DNA of 64,000 bases from Rhodovibrio salinarum DSM 9154. GTDB lineage: Bacteria; Pseudomonadota; Alphaproteobacteria; Kiloniellales; Rhodovibrionaceae. Both the position numbers and the translations under genes were made by a program. Below are positions 49,725 to 58,203 of this stretch, piece after piece; within the stretch, counting starts at the first letter, position 1, and each line of letters starts with the position of its first letter. Below the pieces are notes generated by a model. That model was not told where the DNA came from. It did no database searches and saw only the letters and a list, made by a program, of their open reading frames with translations. The stretch lies in assembly GCF_000515255.1 (NCBI RefSeq), contig NZ_KI911559.1, forward strand, positions 3,518,693-3,582,692, in the 5' to 3' direction.

Positions 49725-49843
49725 GTATCGTCCCCTCCGCCGCCGACCACGCAGTCGTGATCCCCTGTGTTTTGGCTAACCCCTCGCGTGCGGACATATA
49801 GATGGGCAGCTTCGCGTTCACGGCTTGCAGGGAGGCTCCCGCC

Positions 49844-50338
49844 ATGATCCGCGTTTCCACCCGTGTCCGTCTGACACTGGCCGCACTCGTACTGACGGTC
49901 GTCGCCGCCTTGAGCCTGATCGGCGGCGCGCGCGCCTTCTTCGGCTCCGACGACAAGACCGCCTATTTCGCGGAAGACGGGATCGCCATCCGCGGCTACG
50001 ATCCAGTCGCCTACTTCGACCAGGGCGCGCCGGTTAAGGGCAGCGCCGAACACAGCCTGACGTGGCAGGGCGTCACCTGGCAGTTCGCCAGTGCCGCGCA
50101 CCGGCAAGCCTTCCAGGACACTCCCGAGAAGTACGCCCCGGCCTACGGCGGCTATTGCGCCTATGCGGTCGCCAAGGACCAGCTCGCCTCGATCGATCCG
50201 ACCGCCTGGCGAATCGTCGATGGCAAGCTGTACCTCAACTACTCAGCTTCCATCCAAGATACCTGGGAAGAGGACATTCCAGGCTATATCAAGCAGGCGG
50301 AGATCAACTGGCCCGACCTCGACCCAGCGCGGCAGTAA
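49844..50338 (+). CDS. YHS-domain secreted protein
   Basis: This 164-residue protein has a hydrophobic N-terminal signal or anchor (about 8-31). The YHS domain follows: IRGYDPVAYFDQGAPVKGS, WQFASAAHRQAFQ and KYAPAYGGYCAYAV. YHS domains are small, often metal-binding modules. The ATG at 49844 has GGGAGG just upstream, better than the in-frame ATG at 49802. It sits alone between rpoH and the convergent chemoreceptor gene. Confidence 0.82.
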   Translation: MIRVSTRVRLTLAALVLTVVAALSLIGGARAFFGSDDKTAYFAEDGIAIRGYDPVAYFDQGAPVKGSAEHSLTWQGVTWQFASAAHRQAFQDTPEKYAPAYGGYCAYAVAKDQLASIDPTAWRIVDGKLYLNYSASIQDTWEEDIPGYIKQAEINWPDLDPARQ

Positions 50339-50442
50339 ACTACTTGAGCCATCGCGCGGTCCCCGAACCGACCCCGATAGGCGATCCATGCCCCAGAGGT
50401 CAGTTCGGTCGATACAGTTCGCTGCGTAACCTATCGCAAGCT

Positions 50443-51933
50443 TTACCGGTTGGTCGAAAGGCTGCGGTACAGCTCGGTGCCCTCGACGGCAAGTTGACTG
50501 GCCTCGGCCACGGCACTGGAGATCGCATCCAGCTTATCGTTGGTGTCGGAGGTCGCCTGGGTCGCCTCGTTCACGCTGCTGGCCATCTCCCGGGAACTCG
50601 CGCTCTGCTCCTCGACACTGCCGGCCACGCTGGAAATGCTTTCCTCCACCGTGCCGACGGCCTTGCGGATCGCCTCCAGCCGCTCGACCACGTTGTTGGT
50701 GGTCGTCTGAGCCCGCGCGATCTCCTTGGAGATCTGGTCGGTTGCCTGCGCCGACTGGCCGGCCAGTTGCTTGACTTCCTGTGCCACCACGGCGAAGCCC
50801 TTGCCCGCCGCGCCAGCCCGCGCCGCCTCGATGGTCGCGTTCAGCGCCAGCAGGTTGGTCTGCTCGGAGATATCCCGGATCAACTCGACGATATTGTTCA
50901 TATCCTCCGCAGCCGTGGCGAGCTCGCTGGTCAAGGCGTCGGCACGCACCGTCTCCTCGCGCGCGCCTTCGACCTGCTCACGGGACTGCTGCATACTATC
51001 CGAAATCGATTCTGCCGAGCGCTGAAACTCTTCCGCCGCCGCGGCGACCGTCTGCATTGTTTCCAGACTGCGGGCCGAGGTGCCGGCGGCATCCGTCGCC
51101 TGGCTGTTAGCAGATTCGATTGCACGGACGATTTTCGACAGGTTCTGATCGACCTGCTGGCCGACTTCGCGCGCCCGCTCCCATCCGGTCACCTTCTCGG
51201 TGACATCAACGCCATATTTGATGACTTTGATAACCGCGCCATCAGGATCGAAAATCGGGTTATAGCTCGCCTCCAACCACAACGAACTGCCATCCTTTCG
51301 GATTCGCTGGAACTGACCGCTTTGAATTTTGCCAGCCGCCAGCGACTTCCAGAACCGGCGATAGTCCTCACTCTGGGCCTCTTTCTGCGTCACGAAAATC
51401 TTGTGATGCTGACCGACGAGCTCCTTTAATGTATAATCGCAAGCCTTCAGGAAATTGTCGTTGGCCCAAAGTATTTGACCATCAGTTGCAAAATGAATCA
51501 CCGCTTGCGAGCGGTTAATCGCCGCGATTTGCCCCTGCAGTTCGGCATATTCGAGCGTTGTGTCGGTCACGTCCGTGGCGAATTTGACGACCTCGATCGG
51601 TGTCTTGCCGTCCCGGCCGAAAATGGGGTTATAGGAGGCCTGCAGCCATACCAAGCCTCCCGTCTTGGACACGCGCTTGAAGAGGCCCGACTGGAACTCG
51701 CCGCGCGCCAATCTACGCCAGAACTGCCGGTAGTCGTCGCTTTTCGCCAGCGCTTCGGGGACGAACATGCGGTGGTGATGTCCCACCACCTCCGCACGGC
51801 TATAGCCGACGACGTCGAGAAAGCGCTGGTTCGCCTCCTTGATCGTGCCATCGGGTTCGAAGCGGATGATCGCCTGCGAGCGATCAAGCGCGTCGACAAT
51901 CGCCTTGGACTGGCTGTTAGCGCGCGAAAACAT
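50443..51933 (-). CDS. soluble methyl-accepting chemotaxis protein with two PAS domains
   Basis: This 496-residue protein has no membrane segment. Two PAS domains (about 15-123 and 137-245) are close copies of each other: each has DRSQAxI or NRSQAVI at its start, ASYNPIF near its end and DVT at its close. The C-terminal signalling domain carries the hairpin tip IRDISEQTNLLALNATIEAA. It should sense a cytoplasmic signal, perhaps redox or a small ligand, and pass it to CheA. I chose the ATG at 51933 (MFSRANSQSK); ATG 51954 is an alternative without a ribosome site. No che genes are nearby. Confidence 0.88.
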   Translation of the reverse strand: MFSRANSQSKAIVDALDRSQAIIRFEPDGTIKEANQRFLDVVGYSRAEVVGHHHRMFVPEALAKSDDYRQFWRRLARGEFQSGLFKRVSKTGGLVWLQASYNPIFGRDGKTPIEVVKFATDVTDTTLEYAELQGQIAAINRSQAVIHFATDGQILWANDNFLKACDYTLKELVGQHHKIFVTQKEAQSEDYRRFWKSLAAGKIQSGQFQRIRKDGSSLWLEASYNPIFDPDGAVIKVIKYGVDVTEKVTGWERAREVGQQVDQNLSKIVRAIESANSQATDAAGTSARSLETMQTVAAAAEEFQRSAESISDSMQQSREQVEGAREETVRADALTSELATAAEDMNNIVELIRDISEQTNLLALNATIEAARAGAAGKGFAVVAQEVKQLAGQSAQATDQISKEIARAQTTTNNVVERLEAIRKAVGTVEESISSVAGSVEEQSASSREMASSVNEATQATSDTNDKLDAISSAVAEASQLAVEGTELYRSLSTNR

Positions 51934-52262
51934 GAACAGGTGCCATTCCTTCATAAGCTGTACGCCGAACCGCGTCGGCCATCTAAACGATCCGGAGACC
52001 GCGACCGGCAACGCACGCAGGGCGCGCACCCAGGGCTTCCTGCTCAAAATATTGTGGCTGGAAAGTTTATTTGCCCTTAATGCGGCGCAGAATTCAGAAA
52101 AATGGTAAATTGGGCACCTTATGCCCCTGTCCCAACGTTTCTGACCGGGCGCGCCCGGAGGCATGGGCACATCTCCCCAAAAGGACACCCGGCTCCAGTT
52201 TAGGCGACCTTGCGGCGTTAATGGACGGCGGAGAAAACGCCAACAACCCGATTCGGGTCCGT
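51934..52262. other. intergenic region upstream of the chemoreceptor gene
   Basis: No gene is supported. An AT-rich stretch at about 52045-52115 probably holds the chemoreceptor promoter on the minus strand. I saw no clear terminator for the LysE gene, which ends at 52263. Confidence 0.5.
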
Positions 52263-52904
52263 CTAAAACCCCCGGCTCCACAACAGCGTGCCGGCGATCG
52301 TCCAGAGCACCAAACCGATCACCAGATCGATCCCCCGCCAGACCTTCGGCCGGGCCAGCACGGGCGAAAGCCATGCCGCGCCTGCCCCGAGGCCGACGAA
52401 CCATACCGCCGAGGCCAGGATGGCGCCGCCGGTGAACACCACGCGCTGGTCGGTGGGGAACTGACCGGCGAGGCCGCCCAGCAGCACAACGGTGTCCAAC
52501 CAGGCGTGCGGGTTCAGGATCGAGAAGCCGAGCGTGGCCGTCACGATCGCCCGGGTACTGAGGGCGTCTGGCGCATCCGCCGTGTTCAGGGTTTGAGGCT
52601 TCAGCGCGTTTTTGAGCGTCAGCCCGCCGTAGACAATCAGGAAGGTAGCACCGCCGTAGACTGCAAGTTTGGTGAGGATCGGCGAACTCGCGACCAACGA
52701 TCCCACCCCCACCGCGCCCAGCATGATCAGCGCAGAATCGCACAGTGTGCAAAGGACCACGACCAGCGCCACGTGGTGCCGGCGCAACCCCTGGCGTAGC
52801 AGGAAGGCATTCTGCGCCCCAATCGCGACGATCAGGCCAAGGCCAATGCCAAAGCCTTGCCATCCGGCACCCAGTAGCGGGAGCAGGTCGCTCAAGACGC
52901 TCAC
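52263..52904 (-). CDS. LysE/ArgO-family amino acid exporter
   Basis: This 213-residue membrane protein has about six hydrophobic segments. LIVAIGAQNAFLLRQGLRR near the N-terminus and LGFSILNPHAWLDTVVLLGG are the LysE/ArgO signatures. The family exports lysine, arginine or analogues such as canavanine. No ArgP/LysG-type regulator is adjacent. Export of excess basic amino acid would fit the guanidino genes 17 kb away, but that link is speculative. Confidence 0.88.
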   Translation of the reverse strand: MSVLSDLLPLLGAGWQGFGIGLGLIVAIGAQNAFLLRQGLRRHHVALVVVLCTLCDSALIMLGAVGVGSLVASSPILTKLAVYGGATFLIVYGGLTLKNALKPQTLNTADAPDALSTRAIVTATLGFSILNPHAWLDTVVLLGGLAGQFPTDQRVVFTGGAILASAVWFVGLGAGAAWLSPVLARPKVWRGIDLVIGLVLWTIAGTLLWSRGF

Positions 52905-53076: not shown

Positions 53077-53613
53077 TCAGCCCGCTGTGGCAGGCGCCGC
53101 ATCGTGCTCGTCCAGGCCCGCCGCCTTGACGTCGGCCGCAACCTCCGGCCCCCAGTCCTTCTCCAGCGCTTCCTGCTTCTTCTGCAGTTGCCGGATACGC
53201 CGGGCGGTTGTCCGGGCGTGATAGGCGCGCAGCACCGGCGGCAACAAAGCAAACAGCAACCACCCAACCGCAGCCGCGCCATAGGCGGCAAGCCAGGTGA
53301 CGGGATCCGACATCACCCATTGCGCGGAAGCGACGTCATGCCCCCTGTTCCAGACCTCGAGCACGGCGGGCAGACTGCCGGCCAGGTTCAGCAGGCAGAC
53401 CGAGGTTGCCAGCGCCCGACCCGGCTGACGGTCGACCAGCCAGGCGGCCAGGGTCGGCATCATGCAGACCACCAGCACCAGCGTCGTCGGCAGCAAGACG
53501 GCCGCCGCTGGCAACAACAGCACAATCAACGACAGCGAACGCCAGAGACGCCGCCCGCCCGGGTGCGCGGACGCCTGCCGTGCGGCCGACTTGGCAGCTG
53601 GCCGGCGGCTCAT
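53077..53613 (-). CDS. membrane protein of unknown function, paired with the pseudokinase
   Basis: This 178-residue protein has a basic N-terminus, two adjacent hydrophobic segments (about 26-60), another near 66-88, one near 105-128, and a C-terminal charged helix (RIRQLQKKQEALEKDW) that could form a coiled coil. No family is recognised. It follows the pseudokinase gene after 16 bases on the same strand, so the two products, both membrane-bound, probably work together. Confidence 0.7.
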   Translation of the reverse strand: MSRRPAAKSAARQASAHPGGRRLWRSLSLIVLLLPAAAVLLPTTLVLVVCMMPTLAAWLVDRQPGRALATSVCLLNLAGSLPAVLEVWNRGHDVASAQWVMSDPVTWLAAYGAAAVGWLLFALLPPVLRAYHARTTARRIRQLQKKQEALEKDWGPEVAADVKAAGLDEHDAAPATAG

Positions 53614-53629
53614 GGGTAAACCTCCCTCA

Positions 53630-55762
53630 TCATAGGGCGTAGACGATCGAGACCAGCATCACGATCAGCCCCGAGGTGATCGCCGAAACGGCGGTGGCGA
53701 CCGACCGCGTGGACCGGGCAACGTTGGCGGCGCTGGTCAGTCCGCCTTCCTCCAGCCAGGCGATATCGCGGGCAAGCTGACCGTACTGGGCCTTGGCGTG
53801 CTGAAAGGCCTCCTTGTCGCGCCGACGCAGCTCCGGGTCGGCAGCGGCCGCGCGCAATTCCGCCAGCGAGCCGGATTTCACCGCCCGTTCGATCCGGCGC
53901 TTCACCTTCTCCCGGACCTGCCGGTTGTGCAGCGAGTCGGTCAGCGGGGATAGCTGGCGGGCCACCCATTCGCACAGGGCGGGCAGTTGGTCCGGCCCGT
54001 AGCGCCGCTGAAGATCGGCCAGCAAAGCAACCACGGCCTGCGCACGGTTGGCAGCGCTCGGATCGCCCAGTCCCTGGATCAAGCGATCGGGCGCCGGCTT
54101 CATGTTGGCCCCACAGAAAGCGGCGACGTGCCGATCGACCGGGGAGGCATCGGGAACATCCTGCTCGGCCCGGCGCTCCAGGGCGGGAAGCAGTTCTCCC
54201 ACCTCGCAGACATAGGATTCAGCTAGCAGCGGCGACTGACACGGCCACCCCGGATTGTATTCGTACAGCACGCGTTCCATGCCATAGCCCGGCTGGTCGC
54301 GTTCGATGTACCAGAGCATCCGCTCGAACTGCTGCAACACCTGGGGGTGATCCGGGCGCTGCTGTGGTTGCGCCTCCAGCCAACGCTCCGGCAACTTGCT
54401 GCGCAGCACCTCGATGAAGGCGGTGCGTCGGTCGCGGTTCTCGAAGCCGAGCGCGAACGCCTGAGCAATGGCGTCGACCCGGGCAGCGAAGCCGCGCAGG
54501 CGGATCGGCCCGGCCGGGTCGAGGGTGACGAGCGCGCGCGCGAGCGAGCGGTCGTCGCCGCCGTCGCCGAACTGCGTACTCGCCAAAGCCGCCGCGAGGG
54601 CCTTGCTCTGCTTCTCATCCGGCAGGCTGCGCTCAGCCCAGCGCACCAAATCACCGGAGGAGAGGACCCGCAGCGCTTCGGTCCAGTTGTTGGCCAGGGC
54701 ATGAGCCAGCGACGGCGCGGTCCAGTAATCCCGGCCTTGGAACGTGAAAGCCCGGCGCGCCTTGGTCGGCAAGGAGGCCTGCTTGGGGCTCTGCCGGCGA
54801 CCGTTCAGCCAGGTTTCCAGTTGCTGCAACGTCCAGCGTTCGTCGACCCGGTCGCAGAGCAAGCCACGCAGCGGCTCCATCAGGGTCAGCGAGACACGTG
54901 CCTGCCCCATCAGGGCGGCATAGCTGCCCTTGGCAATCTTTTGAGCGACGATCGTCGCCGGATCGGCCTTCGAGAAGGGATCGTTGCCGCGCAGAATCAG
55001 CGCCATCAGGACGCCAAGCGCATAGAGATCGTCGGTGATCGTACCAGCCCCCCGCCCCACCGCCAGGGCCTGACCACCATCGATCGGCTCATACACTGCG
55101 GGCTGGGTCATGCCGGCGGGCGCGCTCGCGCATTCGCCCAGCATACAGGGGCCATTGCCGGCGTCCGCACAGTAGACATTCGCGGCGGAGATCGCCCGGT
55201 GGGTCAAGCCGCGGGCATAGACTTCCCGCAACGTACGGTACGCTGGGCGCAGCACGCGCTCGACCAACTGGTCCTCGCGCATCGTCGGGATTTCATCACC
55301 ACTGGGGGCCAGCACCGGGTCAACCGGGCGATCGTAGCAGATGGCGTAGCGCCGTTCGCCGCCCCCCCACACGACCGGGCCCCAGTCGATCGGGATCATC
55401 AAGGCCACGCCGCGCACCTTGGCCAGACCGTGCAACGCTTCCAGGCGCGGCGGCACCTTGGGGTCGCAGATCAGCACGAACACCTGCTCGGTCGGCGTTC
55501 GGCTGTCACTCGCCGCGAAAGCTTGCGCGGTCGGCCGGTCCAGCTCCGGCAGCCGGGTGGTCAGGTCGATCGTGATGTGCTTGCCGAGATGCGTCTCGCG
55601 CGGGCCACCTTTCGTGGCGCCGGACTCCGGGCGCGCCTTTTCGGCCTTGGGCTTGTCCGCCTTGGGCTGCTCGCGCTTGGGCGACTCAGCCGCGGCGTCC
55701 GTGGTGCCGTCAGTGGCTGCAGCCCCCGTGCCCGCCGTTTCTTTGGTTGCCGCCTCGCTCAT
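53630..55762 (-). CDS. membrane-anchored protein-kinase-like protein, probably a pseudokinase
   Basis: This 710-residue protein has a charged, Lys/Glu/Ala-rich N-terminus (1-60), a protein-kinase-like domain (about 90-315), a long alpha-helical region (about 320-680) and a single C-terminal membrane segment (about 688-709). In the kinase part the catalytic loop reads THRAISAANVY (188-198), with Ala where catalytic Asp should be, and GEC (209-211) stands in the DFG position; DDLYALGVLMALIL (helix F) is well kept. No clear VAIK lysine is seen. It is therefore likely catalytically dead or unusual. The ATG at 55762 (MSEAATKETA) was used. Its partner is probably the next gene. Confidence 0.72.
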   Translation of the reverse strand: MSEAATKETAGTGAAATDGTTDAAAESPKREQPKADKPKAEKARPESGATKGGPRETHLGKHITIDLTTRLPELDRPTAQAFAASDSRTPTEQVFVLICDPKVPPRLEALHGLAKVRGVALMIPIDWGPVVWGGGERRYAICYDRPVDPVLAPSGDEIPTMREDQLVERVLRPAYRTLREVYARGLTHRAISAANVYCADAGNGPCMLGECASAPAGMTQPAVYEPIDGGQALAVGRGAGTITDDLYALGVLMALILRGNDPFSKADPATIVAQKIAKGSYAALMGQARVSLTLMEPLRGLLCDRVDERWTLQQLETWLNGRRQSPKQASLPTKARRAFTFQGRDYWTAPSLAHALANNWTEALRVLSSGDLVRWAERSLPDEKQSKALAAALASTQFGDGGDDRSLARALVTLDPAGPIRLRGFAARVDAIAQAFALGFENRDRRTAFIEVLRSKLPERWLEAQPQQRPDHPQVLQQFERMLWYIERDQPGYGMERVLYEYNPGWPCQSPLLAESYVCEVGELLPALERRAEQDVPDASPVDRHVAAFCGANMKPAPDRLIQGLGDPSAANRAQAVVALLADLQRRYGPDQLPALCEWVARQLSPLTDSLHNRQVREKVKRRIERAVKSGSLAELRAAAADPELRRRDKEAFQHAKAQYGQLARDIAWLEEGGLTSAANVARSTRSVATAVSAITSGLIVMLVSIVYAL

Positions 55763-55920: not shown

Positions 55921-57414
55921 TCACACGGGCCGCTCCAACCCCACGCGATCCAGGGCCATGGCCTGACGTTCGGCGAGCCGGTCGACGTCGAAGTCCTGGA
56001 TCAGCTCCTGGAACAGGCGGTGCCAATTCACTTCCGCCTTCAGATGCATGAACACCGATCCCAGGCCGATCGCCGCGCGGTCCATCAGGACGAACTCGCG
56101 CGGCGGGCGCACGCCGCCGAGGCGCTTGAGCTCGCGGTGGACCTTGTTGACCAGTTCGGCGCCCTCCTTGATCGAGTCCCCCTTCTGGATCGGCTGCACC
56201 CGGTCCTCCAGCAGCGGCCCGTAGAGGTAGCGCGCCCACATGTTGAGCGTCTCCAGCACGTCATCGTTCAGATCGGAGAAGCCCCAGCATGTGTAGGCCT
56301 CGCGCGCCAACGCGTCGTCGTTCCGCTGCAATGCGTGGTAGAGGTCGATCACCCCCTTCACGAAGGTCGGCGAGAACACGCGGATGCAGCCGAAGTCCAT
56401 CAGGTTGATCGACTGGTCTTCCGGGCGGACGGTGTAGTTGCCCAGGTGCGGGTCGCCGTGGATCACACCATAGTAATAGAACGGCACGTACCACGCCCGG
56501 AACATGTTGTAGGCGACGCGGTCGCGCTGCGCCTGATCGGCGTGGTCGCGGATGAAATCCATCAGCCGCGCCCCCTCGACCCAGGTCATCGACAGGAGTC
56601 GCTTGGACGACAGTTCCGGCACCGGCTCCGGCACCTGTACGCCCGACTCCTCGTTCAGCATGTCTCGGTAGAGCGCCATGTTGCGGCGCTCGCGGTCGTA
56701 GTCGGTCTCCTCGCGCAGACGCGCGGAGAGCTCCTGATAAATCTCGCTGGTGTCGATCGCGTTGTCGTAGCGCCTGTAGATCGACAGCACCCAACGCAAC
56801 TGGGTCAGGTCCGCTTCCACGGTCGACTGCATGTCGGGGTACTGCAGCTTGCACGCCAATTGACGGCCTTGCTGGTCGACCGCGCGATGCACCTGCCCCA
56901 ACGAGGCGGCGGCGACCGCTTCGTGGCTGAACTCCTGAAACTGCTTGCGCCAGCCGGGGCCGAGCTCGCTGGTCATCCGGCGCTTGACGAACGGCCAGCC
57001 CATGGCCGGCGCGTTGGACTGCAGCTGCTGCAGCTCCTGGGCGTATTCCTTGGGCAGCGCCTCGGGAATGGTGGCCAGGATCTGCGCTGCTTTCATCAAC
57101 GGACCCTTGATGCCGCCCAGCGCCTGGCGCAGCTCGCCGGAATGCTTGAGGGAGTCGAGTTCCCGTCCCAGGAAGCGCTTGCCCGCCATCTGCGTGACCA
57201 CGCCGGCCATCGACGTCCCAACCTGGGCGTAGCGCTGCACACGCCGGCCGAACCGGCCCTCCTCGTAGTCGCGCCCGCTTTCCCGCCGCGCCGCGCTCTC
57301 CGCGTCGTCGTAGTGGGACGCGTCATACAAGCCCTCGGCCGGCGTCTCGGATGCACGGCCGGACGTTTCGGTATCCGTGTGGGTTGGGCGGGTATCGCCG
57401 CGGCTGTCGGCCAT
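55921..57414 (-). CDS. ABC1/UbiB (AarF)-family kinase-like protein
   Basis: This 497-residue protein has the ABC1 layout: a K-x-x-Q motif (KAAQ, K108), the Ala-rich loop AAASLGQVHRA (168-178), LACKLQYPD (K189), VIHGDPHLGNY and NLMDFG. The family, which includes UbiB, supports ubiquinone synthesis or lipid handling. Here the usual K-x-G-Q is K-A-A-Q, as in a branch often written MKVAQLLATIPDALP; this protein has MKAAQILATIPEALP. The first 60 residues are charged and low-complexity. The ATG at 57414 was chosen. It could belong to the same neighbourhood function as the pseudokinase, 160 bases away. Confidence 0.85.
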   Translation of the reverse strand: MADSRGDTRPTHTDTETSGRASETPAEGLYDASHYDDAESAARRESGRDYEEGRFGRRVQRYAQVGTSMAGVVTQMAGKRFLGRELDSLKHSGELRQALGGIKGPLMKAAQILATIPEALPKEYAQELQQLQSNAPAMGWPFVKRRMTSELGPGWRKQFQEFSHEAVAAASLGQVHRAVDQQGRQLACKLQYPDMQSTVEADLTQLRWVLSIYRRYDNAIDTSEIYQELSARLREETDYDRERRNMALYRDMLNEESGVQVPEPVPELSSKRLLSMTWVEGARLMDFIRDHADQAQRDRVAYNMFRAWYVPFYYYGVIHGDPHLGNYTVRPEDQSINLMDFGCIRVFSPTFVKGVIDLYHALQRNDDALAREAYTCWGFSDLNDDVLETLNMWARYLYGPLLEDRVQPIQKGDSIKEGAELVNKVHRELKRLGGVRPPREFVLMDRAAIGLGSVFMHLKAEVNWHRLFQELIQDFDVDRLAERQAMALDRVGLERPV

Positions 57415-57552
57415 CGCTGGTCTTTCCCTTTTGCGCCCTGGTAAATTGGCTGGCCAGGGCCGCTTGTCCAGTCGTCCCACTGCGGGCGCGCGCCCAGACG
57501 CAGATCCTACCGCTGCCAACCACGACCAACACCGAGCGTCCAAGCGACAGCC

Positions 57553-58203
57553 ATGCTGCTGCCCTACACCATCGAGGTCTTTTTCGCGGCGATGACGCGC
57601 TACAACGCCGACCACGCAGTCTTGGTGGCGTTGCTGGCCGTGCTCAGCGCAGTGGCATTTGGGCTGGCCGTCCAGGGCACACGCGGGGTCTGGCAGGACC
57701 GCTGCGTCGGCGCCCCCCTGGCCGCGGGGGCGCTGATGAGCGGCTGGGCGCATCAGGGCGGGATGATGGCGGACCTGAACTTCATGGCCGCCGTTTATGC
57801 CCCGGTGTGGATCGCCCAGGCGGCGCTGCTGGCCGCCGCGCTGATTTTCCGGCCGCAGTTGCAGTTCACCGGGCCGGCCGACGTCGCGCGCGTTGGCGGG
57901 CTCGCGATCGCTGCACTCGGCCTATTCGGGCACCCGCTAACGCTGCTGGCGCTCGGCACCGCGCCCGGCAGCCTACCGCTTGCCGGCAGTGCACCGGACG
58001 CCACGACGATGCTCACGGCCGGGCTGCTCGCCGCCGCGCATGGACCCCGCTGGCTGCGACTCTGCCTGCTGCTGGTGCCGCTCGCCTGGGGCGGGGTCGC
58101 GGGGACCAGCGCCTATCTGCTCGCGTTCCCGCTGGACTATGCCGTGCCGGCGGCAGCGCTGGCGGCCGTCGCACTCACCCTGGCGGGACGCCGTCGCGGC
58201 TAG
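57553..58203 (+). CDS. DUF6064-type integral membrane protein
   Basis: This 216-residue protein has about six hydrophobic segments and opens MLLPYTIEVFFAAMTRYNAD, the usual beginning of DUF6064 proteins. No catalytic motif is visible and the function is unknown. It is divergent from the ABC1 gene, and its stop overlaps the convergent SDR gene by 4 bases. Confidence 0.72.
   Translation: MLLPYTIEVFFAAMTRYNADHAVLVALLAVLSAVAFGLAVQGTRGVWQDRCVGAPLAAGALMSGWAHQGGMMADLNFMAAVYAPVWIAQAALLAAALIFRPQLQFTGPADVARVGGLAIAALGLFGHPLTLLALGTAPGSLPLAGSAPDATTMLTAGLLAAAHGPRWLRLCLLLVPLAWGGVAGTSAYLLAFPLDYAVPAAALAAVALTLAGRRRG

Follow-up and report, generated by a model that had tools for sequence, protein, structure and literature searches.

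A membrane-anchored pseudokinase and its small membrane partner, an apparently undescribed gene pair in Rhodovibrio salinarum and other Alphaproteobacteria

We report on two adjacent genes, here called P1 and P2, in a 64,000 nucleotide stretch of the genome of Rhodovibrio salinarum DSM 9154 (contig NZ_KI911559.1, positions 3,518,693 to 3,582,692; referred to as the window). P1 (53630-55762; 710 amino acids) encodes, as judged from its open reading frame (ORF) and an AlphaFold2 model, a pseudokinase domain, then a helical-repeat domain and, at the C-terminus, a membrane anchor, and P2 (53077-53613; 178 amino acids), which lies downstream, encodes a small membrane protein. Apparently, neither the pseudokinase family to which P1 belongs nor its partner has been described before. 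Our data make it reasonably probable that the two proteins form a non-catalytic docking or ligand-sensing complex of the inner membrane, which would be mostly vertically inherited across much of Alphaproteobacteria.

P1 has a kinase fold with degraded catalytic residues

Both ORFs are present where an initial annotation of the window, made from the sequence, had placed them, and all features of P1 and P2 given below are on the minus strand. Structure prediction of the single proteins, which had been proposed there, gave a P1 model with pLDDT 91.7 and pTM 0.85 (input 83 aligned sequences). The order in the model is approximately 50 N-terminal residues of low confidence, a kinase fold, a 19-helix domain and a final 32-residue helix. 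Residues 52-322 (54797-55609) constitute the kinase-fold domain according to AlphaFold2 and VIA-align. The top VIA-align match was WNK3 (5o21; Z 23.6, rmsd 2.6, 251 residues aligned, within residues 51-320 of the model), further WNK entries were found within Z 1 of it, and PknA scored Z 22.3. PknA was the top Foldseek match (E 3.4e-8), and the P1 family profile matched kinases in the Protein Data Bank (PDB) with an E-value of 6.5e-14; the kinase fold read from the sequence in the initial annotation is thereby borne out. The single P1 sequence stayed under the curated cut-off of PF00069 (E 0.014; 15.2 bits, cut-off 31.7) and under that of the anti-phage defence kinase MAD6 (NCBIfam NF047741; 21.8 bits, cut-off 460).

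For the family comparison we used 85 P1 copies from 82 loci; loci and genomes are referred to by our own L and G numbers. Alignment A1 comprises 83 of the 85 copies (L104 and L116 are out) and alignment A3 82 of those 83 (L085 is also out). Alignment A2 comprises the P2 of the window and 69 of 76 P2 references, with the P2 of L113 and L121 (long overlapping frames) excluded, also from the distance correlation below. Met1 was omitted in A1, A2 and both models, i.e. model numbering equals protein numbering minus one.

Where kinases have HRDL, P1 has HRAI at residues 188-191 (55201-55190), as previously noticed. In the degraded catalytic loop HRAISAAN (residues 188-195; 55178-55201) Ala190 replaces the catalytic Asp and Asn195 is kept. 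The residues at position 190 in the family are A 42, S 12, N 10, G 9, R 5 and D 1, while Asn195, the Asn of HRDxxxxN, is retained in 82 of the 85 copies. In the DFG segment P1 has LGEC at residues 208-211, and GEC (residues 209-211; 55130-55138) is aligned to GDF; this register was set by profile alignments to intact relatives (see below) and to PDB kinases, which put GEC opposite GDF or TDF. The acid is Glu210. The claim that the DFG Asp had been lost therefore holds for P1 of the window in that the residue is not Asp, but an acid is conserved in the family (E 51, D 29, Q 4 and P 1; acidic in 80/85).

By alignment to the intact relatives, the position of the beta-3 Lys corresponds to Leu97, where none of the 85 copies has Lys. 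Nor is there any Lys at positions 96 or 99, and at position 98 it was found in one copy (1/85). Arg106 is kept in 82/85. Before Arg106, Lys and Arg together reach 60 percent or more only at position 62 (R 58 and K 6 of 85; His in P1 of the window). Active kinase residues relocated elsewhere in the fold, which would have spoken against the initial annotation, were sought, and no Lys-dominated conserved position was present in the N-lobe. The helix F region had been noted as kept, in agreement with the presence of the motif DDLYALGV, in which residue 245 is Asp in 84/85 copies. In summary, P1 combines a kinase fold with absence of the HRD Asp, the beta-3 Lys and the DFG Asp (Glu210 instead), the features that define a pseudokinase. 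The catalytic residues are degraded family-wide, and phosphotransfer should therefore be lost; since Glu or Asp at 210 and Asn195 are conserved, a metal or ligand site involving these residues may persist.

The repeat domain and membrane tail of P1

The kinase fold is followed by a helical-repeat domain (model; residues 327-676, 53735-54784), the repeats of which are common to the intact kinase relatives and which has invariant Tyr500 and Cys508. These two residues (85/85 each) belong to the motif ERxLYExNxxxPCxS (residues 496-510; 54233-54277), where E496, R497 and S510 are each present in 83 of the 85 copies. DRH at residues 543-545 (54128-54136) is similarly conserved (D543 84/85; H545 83/85). 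Altogether 27 positions of P1 are conserved in at least 95 percent of the copies, and 13 of them lie past residue 370, in the repeat domain. No Pfam family was common to more than three members when 82 repeat-domain stretches were searched. Assignment of the repeats as armadillo, based on a match to designed armadillo proteins in PDB (E 8e-6), was rejected as an artefact because it covers only 24 residues and no single stretch passed. The "long helical region" of the initial annotation is thus present and can be refined to a kinase-linked helical-repeat domain with invariant residues of its own.

As also anticipated, P1 ends in a membrane anchor (residues 678-709; 53636-53731), predicted from the model helix and hydrophobicity. 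A hydrophobic stretch of 19 residues with a mean Kyte-Doolittle (KD) value of at least 1.2 is present within the last 45 residues in 84/85 copies, and a second stretch (mean KD at least 1.6) elsewhere in P1 in 22/85.

P2 is a small membrane protein

The P2 model (pLDDT 90.4) has helices at residues 18-38, 40-49, 51-59, 66-88, 93-100, 103-153 and 156-169 (model numbering). Four membrane-length helical segments are predicted, the last of which continues into a long C-terminal helix. Hydropathy drops after approximately residue 121, and the charged part of the C-terminal helix, residues 129-154 (53152-53229), is coiled-coil-like by eye and lies inside the single model helix 103-153. The charge distribution suggests that both the N- and the C-terminus are cytoplasmic. 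Fold searches with P2 gave no Foldseek match at E ≤0.001 and a maximum VIA-align Z of 7.8, which is in the warning range of the tool, and no Pfam family was common to more than three of 70 P2 proteins.

The two genes are separated by 16 bp. The P1 stop codon is TGA (53630-53632) and the gap has a GGGAGG ribosome-binding-like site for P2 (53621-53626), both as read from the sequence. Scans for promoters and terminators returned 0 and 2 sites, respectively, compared to 0.4 and 1.6 expected. Our strain has one P1 copy (4.18 Mb, single contig), and the nearest named relative that we found is Rhodovibrio sodomensis (Alphaproteobacteria; 77 percent identity in the best segment).

P1 and P2 occur together and are maintained

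The genomes searched at the level of order, class and phylum are samples, and as the class search scored at most two P1 candidates per genome the P1 copy numbers are lower bounds. In the order sample, P1 was predicted in 50 of 61 genomes and P2 in the identical 50 (own genome counted; lists compared by eye). The class sample of 385 genomes includes 131 with both genes, none with P1 only, three with P2 only and 251 with neither, giving totals of 131 for P1 (own genome counted) and 134 for P2, and the carriers span 71 family-level groups. P2 is consequently present in 131/131 P1 genomes of the class sample, and this survey of Alphaproteobacteria, suggested in the initial annotation, upholds its two-gene unit. 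With respect to the three P2-only genomes, one has a weak match (E 2.9e-5) and two are 84 and 75 percent complete; the P1 profile search was empty in all three.

A P2 gene in the orientation of P1 was found next to it in 79 of the 85 copies, with very few exceptions immediately downstream; in two cases it was read from a long overlapping frame. The remaining six fall into two groups: in L070, L085 and L104 the sequence stops at a contig edge, and in L116, L127 and L129 P2 is located on a different contig. The genome with L127 has six contigs and is rated 100 percent complete, i.e. the pair has been split there and both genes are retained. Tandem duplication of the whole pair was detected in L080, L086 and L128. 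Moreover, pairwise distances of P1 and P2 are correlated beyond those of purA (partial r 0.40; 49 loci), a value that was reached by 0 of 500 permutations.

The ratio dN/dS for the window compared to R. sodomensis is 0.19 for P1 (0.141/0.742) and 0.18 for P2 (0.139/0.766), and the pair persists in genomes such as G106, G325 and G167, which are nearly complete and 1.4-2 Mb in size. Judging from these sequence data, the pair is under maintenance, with no decay. As regards mobility, five Azospirillum plasmid records carry P1, and a search of 50,697 phage records for a phage origin gave no match at E 1e-5.

Additional copies were also noted. Genome G187 has four diverged P1 copies (L187-L189) on four contigs. 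Genome G074 has three extra P2 copies without P1 (L184, L185 and L186), located beside genes for a Ysc84 protein, a hybrid histidine kinase and DUF3224; no common neighbour was found among the ten flanking genes scanned.

Intact relatives and other kinases

Outside the class, the best matches to the P1 profile among 398 phylum genomes were L190, L191 and L192 (107, 108 and 103 bits; the next match had 69), with whole-genome E-values of 1.7e-31, 1.8e-31 and 2.1e-29 and, in a further comparison with the P1 profile, scores of 119, 121 and 101 bits, respectively. Like P1, these proteins have a kinase domain and then related helical repeats. In contrast to P1, their kinase domains match Pkinase with E-values of 5e-36 to 1e-39 and HRDIKPGN, DFG and the beta-3 Lys are intact. 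No P2 match was detected near them in stretches of 5.5-9 kb. A search of 4,511 ORFs, most of them spurious or unrelated frames, with just the repeat domain of P1 recovered only two of these three proteins (E 6.5e-6 and 4.1e-5). In the phylum sample the repeat domain was found in 16 of the 398 genomes, all belonging to the class of the window. Intact relatives were not found in 220 class genomes at E 1e-20, in a search without positive control. Possibly, L190-L192 represent an undescribed kinase architecture of their own; L192 adjoins a sulfatase-modifying-factor-like (FGE) gene. These comparisons suggest that an intact kinase with repeats would have given rise to P1 in Alphaproteobacteria and that catalysis was presumably lost early.

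In the genome of R. salinarum nothing exceeded the PF00069 cut-off, and up to E 1 P1 itself was the only match. A function of P1 as regulator of an active sister kinase is thus unlikely in this genome. We also scanned 47 P1 carriers, selected from carriers that are each at least 90 percent complete, and found no Hanks kinase at E ≤1e-10 in 28, which argues that P1 is not in general a regulator of one, although it might be in some species.

Genomic neighbourhood

The usual gene order is serC, serA, hisZ, purA, P1, P2 followed by convergent rpoH and rluD, where the neighbours are presumed to be the genes so named, as recognised from representative sequences. Pfam matches are in line with this for serA, hisZ (histidyl-tRNA-synthetase-like), purA, rpoH (sigma factor) and rluD (pseudouridine synthase); the serC representative has no Pfam family at E 1e-15 and its name rests on an Azospirillum annotation. 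Considering loci with enough flanking sequence, purA is upstream in 54/79 (within 400 bp in 50 of 55 purA loci), hisZ in 42/74, serA in 25/67 and serC in 11/32, while convergent rpoH is downstream in 43/77 and rluD in 42/73. Despite sufficient flank, 13 of the 82 loci have neither purA nor rpoH. Azospirillum thermophilum has hisZ, adenylosuccinate synthase (purA), WP_109331946.1 (P1), WP_245986950.1 (P2) and rpoH in this order, and in A. ramasamyi the pair is beside other genes, with purA elsewhere. The two proteins are annotated as "serine/threonine protein kinase" and "hypothetical protein" in two Azospirillum records.

The window has pseudouridine synthase and rpoH-like genes near the pair and purA is not adjacent to it. 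Genes for a YHS-domain protein, a PAS chemoreceptor and a LysE-type exporter (49802-52904) separate the rpoH-like gene from P2, a place at which there is often no gene in relatives; a LysE gene after P2 is also present in L002 (R. sodomensis). Directly upstream of P1 is an ABC1/UbiB-type atypical kinase gene (PF03109, E 6e-56; 55921-57573, minus strand). No such gene was seen in the R. sodomensis stretch L002, and an operon of P1 with it is not supported; the gene is probably a chance neighbour.

Among eight genomes of the same order without P1, purA and rpoH are adjacent in L164, L165 and L167, other ORFs lie between them in L166, L169 and L170, and no rpoH was seen in the purA stretch of L168 and L171. 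The spacing in the first group is 325 bp (L164), 72 bp (L165) and 3 bp (L167), with hisZ-purA and rpoH-rluD kept, as if P1 and P2 had dropped out together. In L172, L174 and L177, which are without the pair, an ORF lacking a Pfam match is present just after purA (it starts with MADY in L174 and L177). Neither the P1 nor the P2 profile matched the ORF that follows purA in some non-carriers.

Proposed role of the pair and alternative explanations

Taken together, the inactive fold, the conserved repeats, the conserved tail anchor and the constant membrane partner suggest that a membrane-bound complex is used for docking or sensing. P1 would be in the cytoplasm, hung from its C-terminal membrane helix, and its kinase fold, having no phosphotransfer, would serve for docking or for sensing a ligand; Asn195 and Glu/Asp210 might bind metal or nucleotide there without catalysis. 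The repeat domain, with its ERxLY...PCxS and DRH residues, would hold a client protein, while P2 might pair with the membrane helix of P1, stabilise P1 and add a helical arm. A more elaborate version, which we regard as rather doubtful, is an ancestral membrane complex of Alphaproteobacteria in which a complete kinase-plus-repeat protein became a non-phosphorylating sensor of a small ligand, perhaps a purine nucleotide, which would use the old ATP/metal pocket and signal via the repeats and P2 to a membrane-bound client. If true, P1 would possibly be the sole Hanks-type kinase fold in many species, i.e. signalling without any such protein kinase.

Several points weigh against a docking or sensing complex. 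The contact between P1 and P2, ligand binding and a client are all features that we infer, and the topology of the pair, its mode of inheritance and its scaffold or sensor role are likewise presumed. The co-occurrence counts are not independent, as genomes share descent, and a significance test would overstate them; the correlation of P1 and P2 distances is moderate and partly reflects shared ancestry. Many class genomes (251/385) lack the pair, 19 of the 47 scanned carriers do have a Hanks kinase, and in G074 and G206 a single P1 is accompanied by four copies of P2, so that P2 may also function independently of P1.

Different explanations for P1 were considered. WNK kinases have a relocated lysine, and P1 might in the same manner have kept protein kinase activity by means of an unusual set of catalytic residues. 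The best structural match is to WNK3; however, entries within Z 1 of it count as ties and are kinases throughout, and with a single Lys/Arg-rich position before Arg106 (position 62, His in P1 of the window) and the catalytic Asp in one of 85 copies we regard this as very improbable. Somewhat less improbable, albeit still unlikely, is a repurposed enzyme, anchored to the membrane by P2, that would use ATP for a different transfer reaction, comparable to AMPylation by SelO or glutamylation by SidJ. Such an activity would be in keeping with the retention of Asn195 (82/85), an acid at 210 (80/85) and Arg106 (82/85), and known pseudokinases have gained new activities according to a recent review (PMC12599244), but by its account SelO and SidJ keep the Lys, which P1 has in 0/85 copies at the beta-3 position and in 1/85 one residue on. 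At the other extreme, loss of catalytic residues could mean that the P1 gene is a kinase gene in decay and P2 its neighbour by chance; the low dN/dS, the 27 positions conserved to at least 95 percent, the near-perfect co-occurrence and the retention in nearly complete 1.4-2 Mb genomes leave hardly any probability for this, and we reject it on grounds of selection and conservation.

The pair might instead serve its neighbours: by sensing nucleotides beside PurA, for example, it could tune the synthesis of purines, histidine and serine or the heat-shock response under RpoH. The frequent upstream purA (54/79) and downstream rpoH (43/77), and the arrangement hisZ-purA-P1-P2-rpoH in A. thermophilum, would fit with this. 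However, three genomes of the same order that lack the pair keep hisZ-purA next to rpoH-rluD, the pair is away from purA in the window and in A. ramasamyi, and 13/82 loci have neither gene. As the positions of purA and rpoH are unchanged in the three genomes that lost the pair, these genes may be merely an ancestral address, and the common position may reflect ancestral gene order only. We therefore give this explanation a small chance. The docking or sensing complex is the reading that we favour, and P1-P2 would then be a clean case for a kinase-fold role without phosphorylating or regulating a sister kinase, in a field where few bacterial pseudokinases have a known role, as summarised in the review (PMC12599244). 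The annotation of P1 as "serine/threonine protein kinase" is, accordingly, misleading.

Comparison with known pseudokinases

The 2025 review recognises seven bacterial pseudokinase families, five wholly and two largely pseudokinase, among 42 families of bacterial serine/threonine kinases (bSTK) and more than 300,000 sequences (PMC12599244). Compared by their descriptions there, and with respect to those seven of the 42 bSTK families only, P1 fits none of them. No description of the P1-P2 pair was among the entries that our literature searches listed, in line with the initial annotation, which had pointed to an undescribed system, and no described family was found for the pair. GLW pseudokinases (classification of O'Boyle et al.) have GLW in place of HRD, which is found in 0/85 of the P1 family, and the beta-3 segment LLL in 1/85. 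The DYD family differs by DYD in the DFG segment (0/85).

CP1, in proteobacteria, and DLHK, in Pseudomonas, share degraded kinase motifs with P1, but both are said to be without transmembrane regions, CP1 is linked to COG3899 and DLHK retains the HRD Asp (PMC12599244). ActPs3 (mycobacterial MviN) resembles P1 in having fully degraded motifs and in being a conserved bacterial family; its motifs are, however, VALT and Lsidhpsr, and the ActPs families are described as mainly actinobacterial (PMC12599244). SelO and SidJ differ from P1 in that the nucleotide-binding Lys, missing in P1, is kept (PMC12599244).

A further comparison is with EssB/YukC of type VII secretion, a membrane-anchored pseudokinase that acts by scaffolding (PMC12599244). 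EssB/YukC is from Firmicutes (PMC12599244) and has other catalytic-loop remnants. EssB was not among the best 50 matches listed in the VIA-align fold search with P1, and no type VII secretion context was evident around P1, where the recurrent neighbours are serC, serA, hisZ, purA, rpoH and rluD instead (rarer neighbours were partly identified). P1 thus resembles EssB/YukC in being a membrane-anchored pseudokinase, and differs from it in lineage, catalytic-loop remnants and gene neighbourhood.

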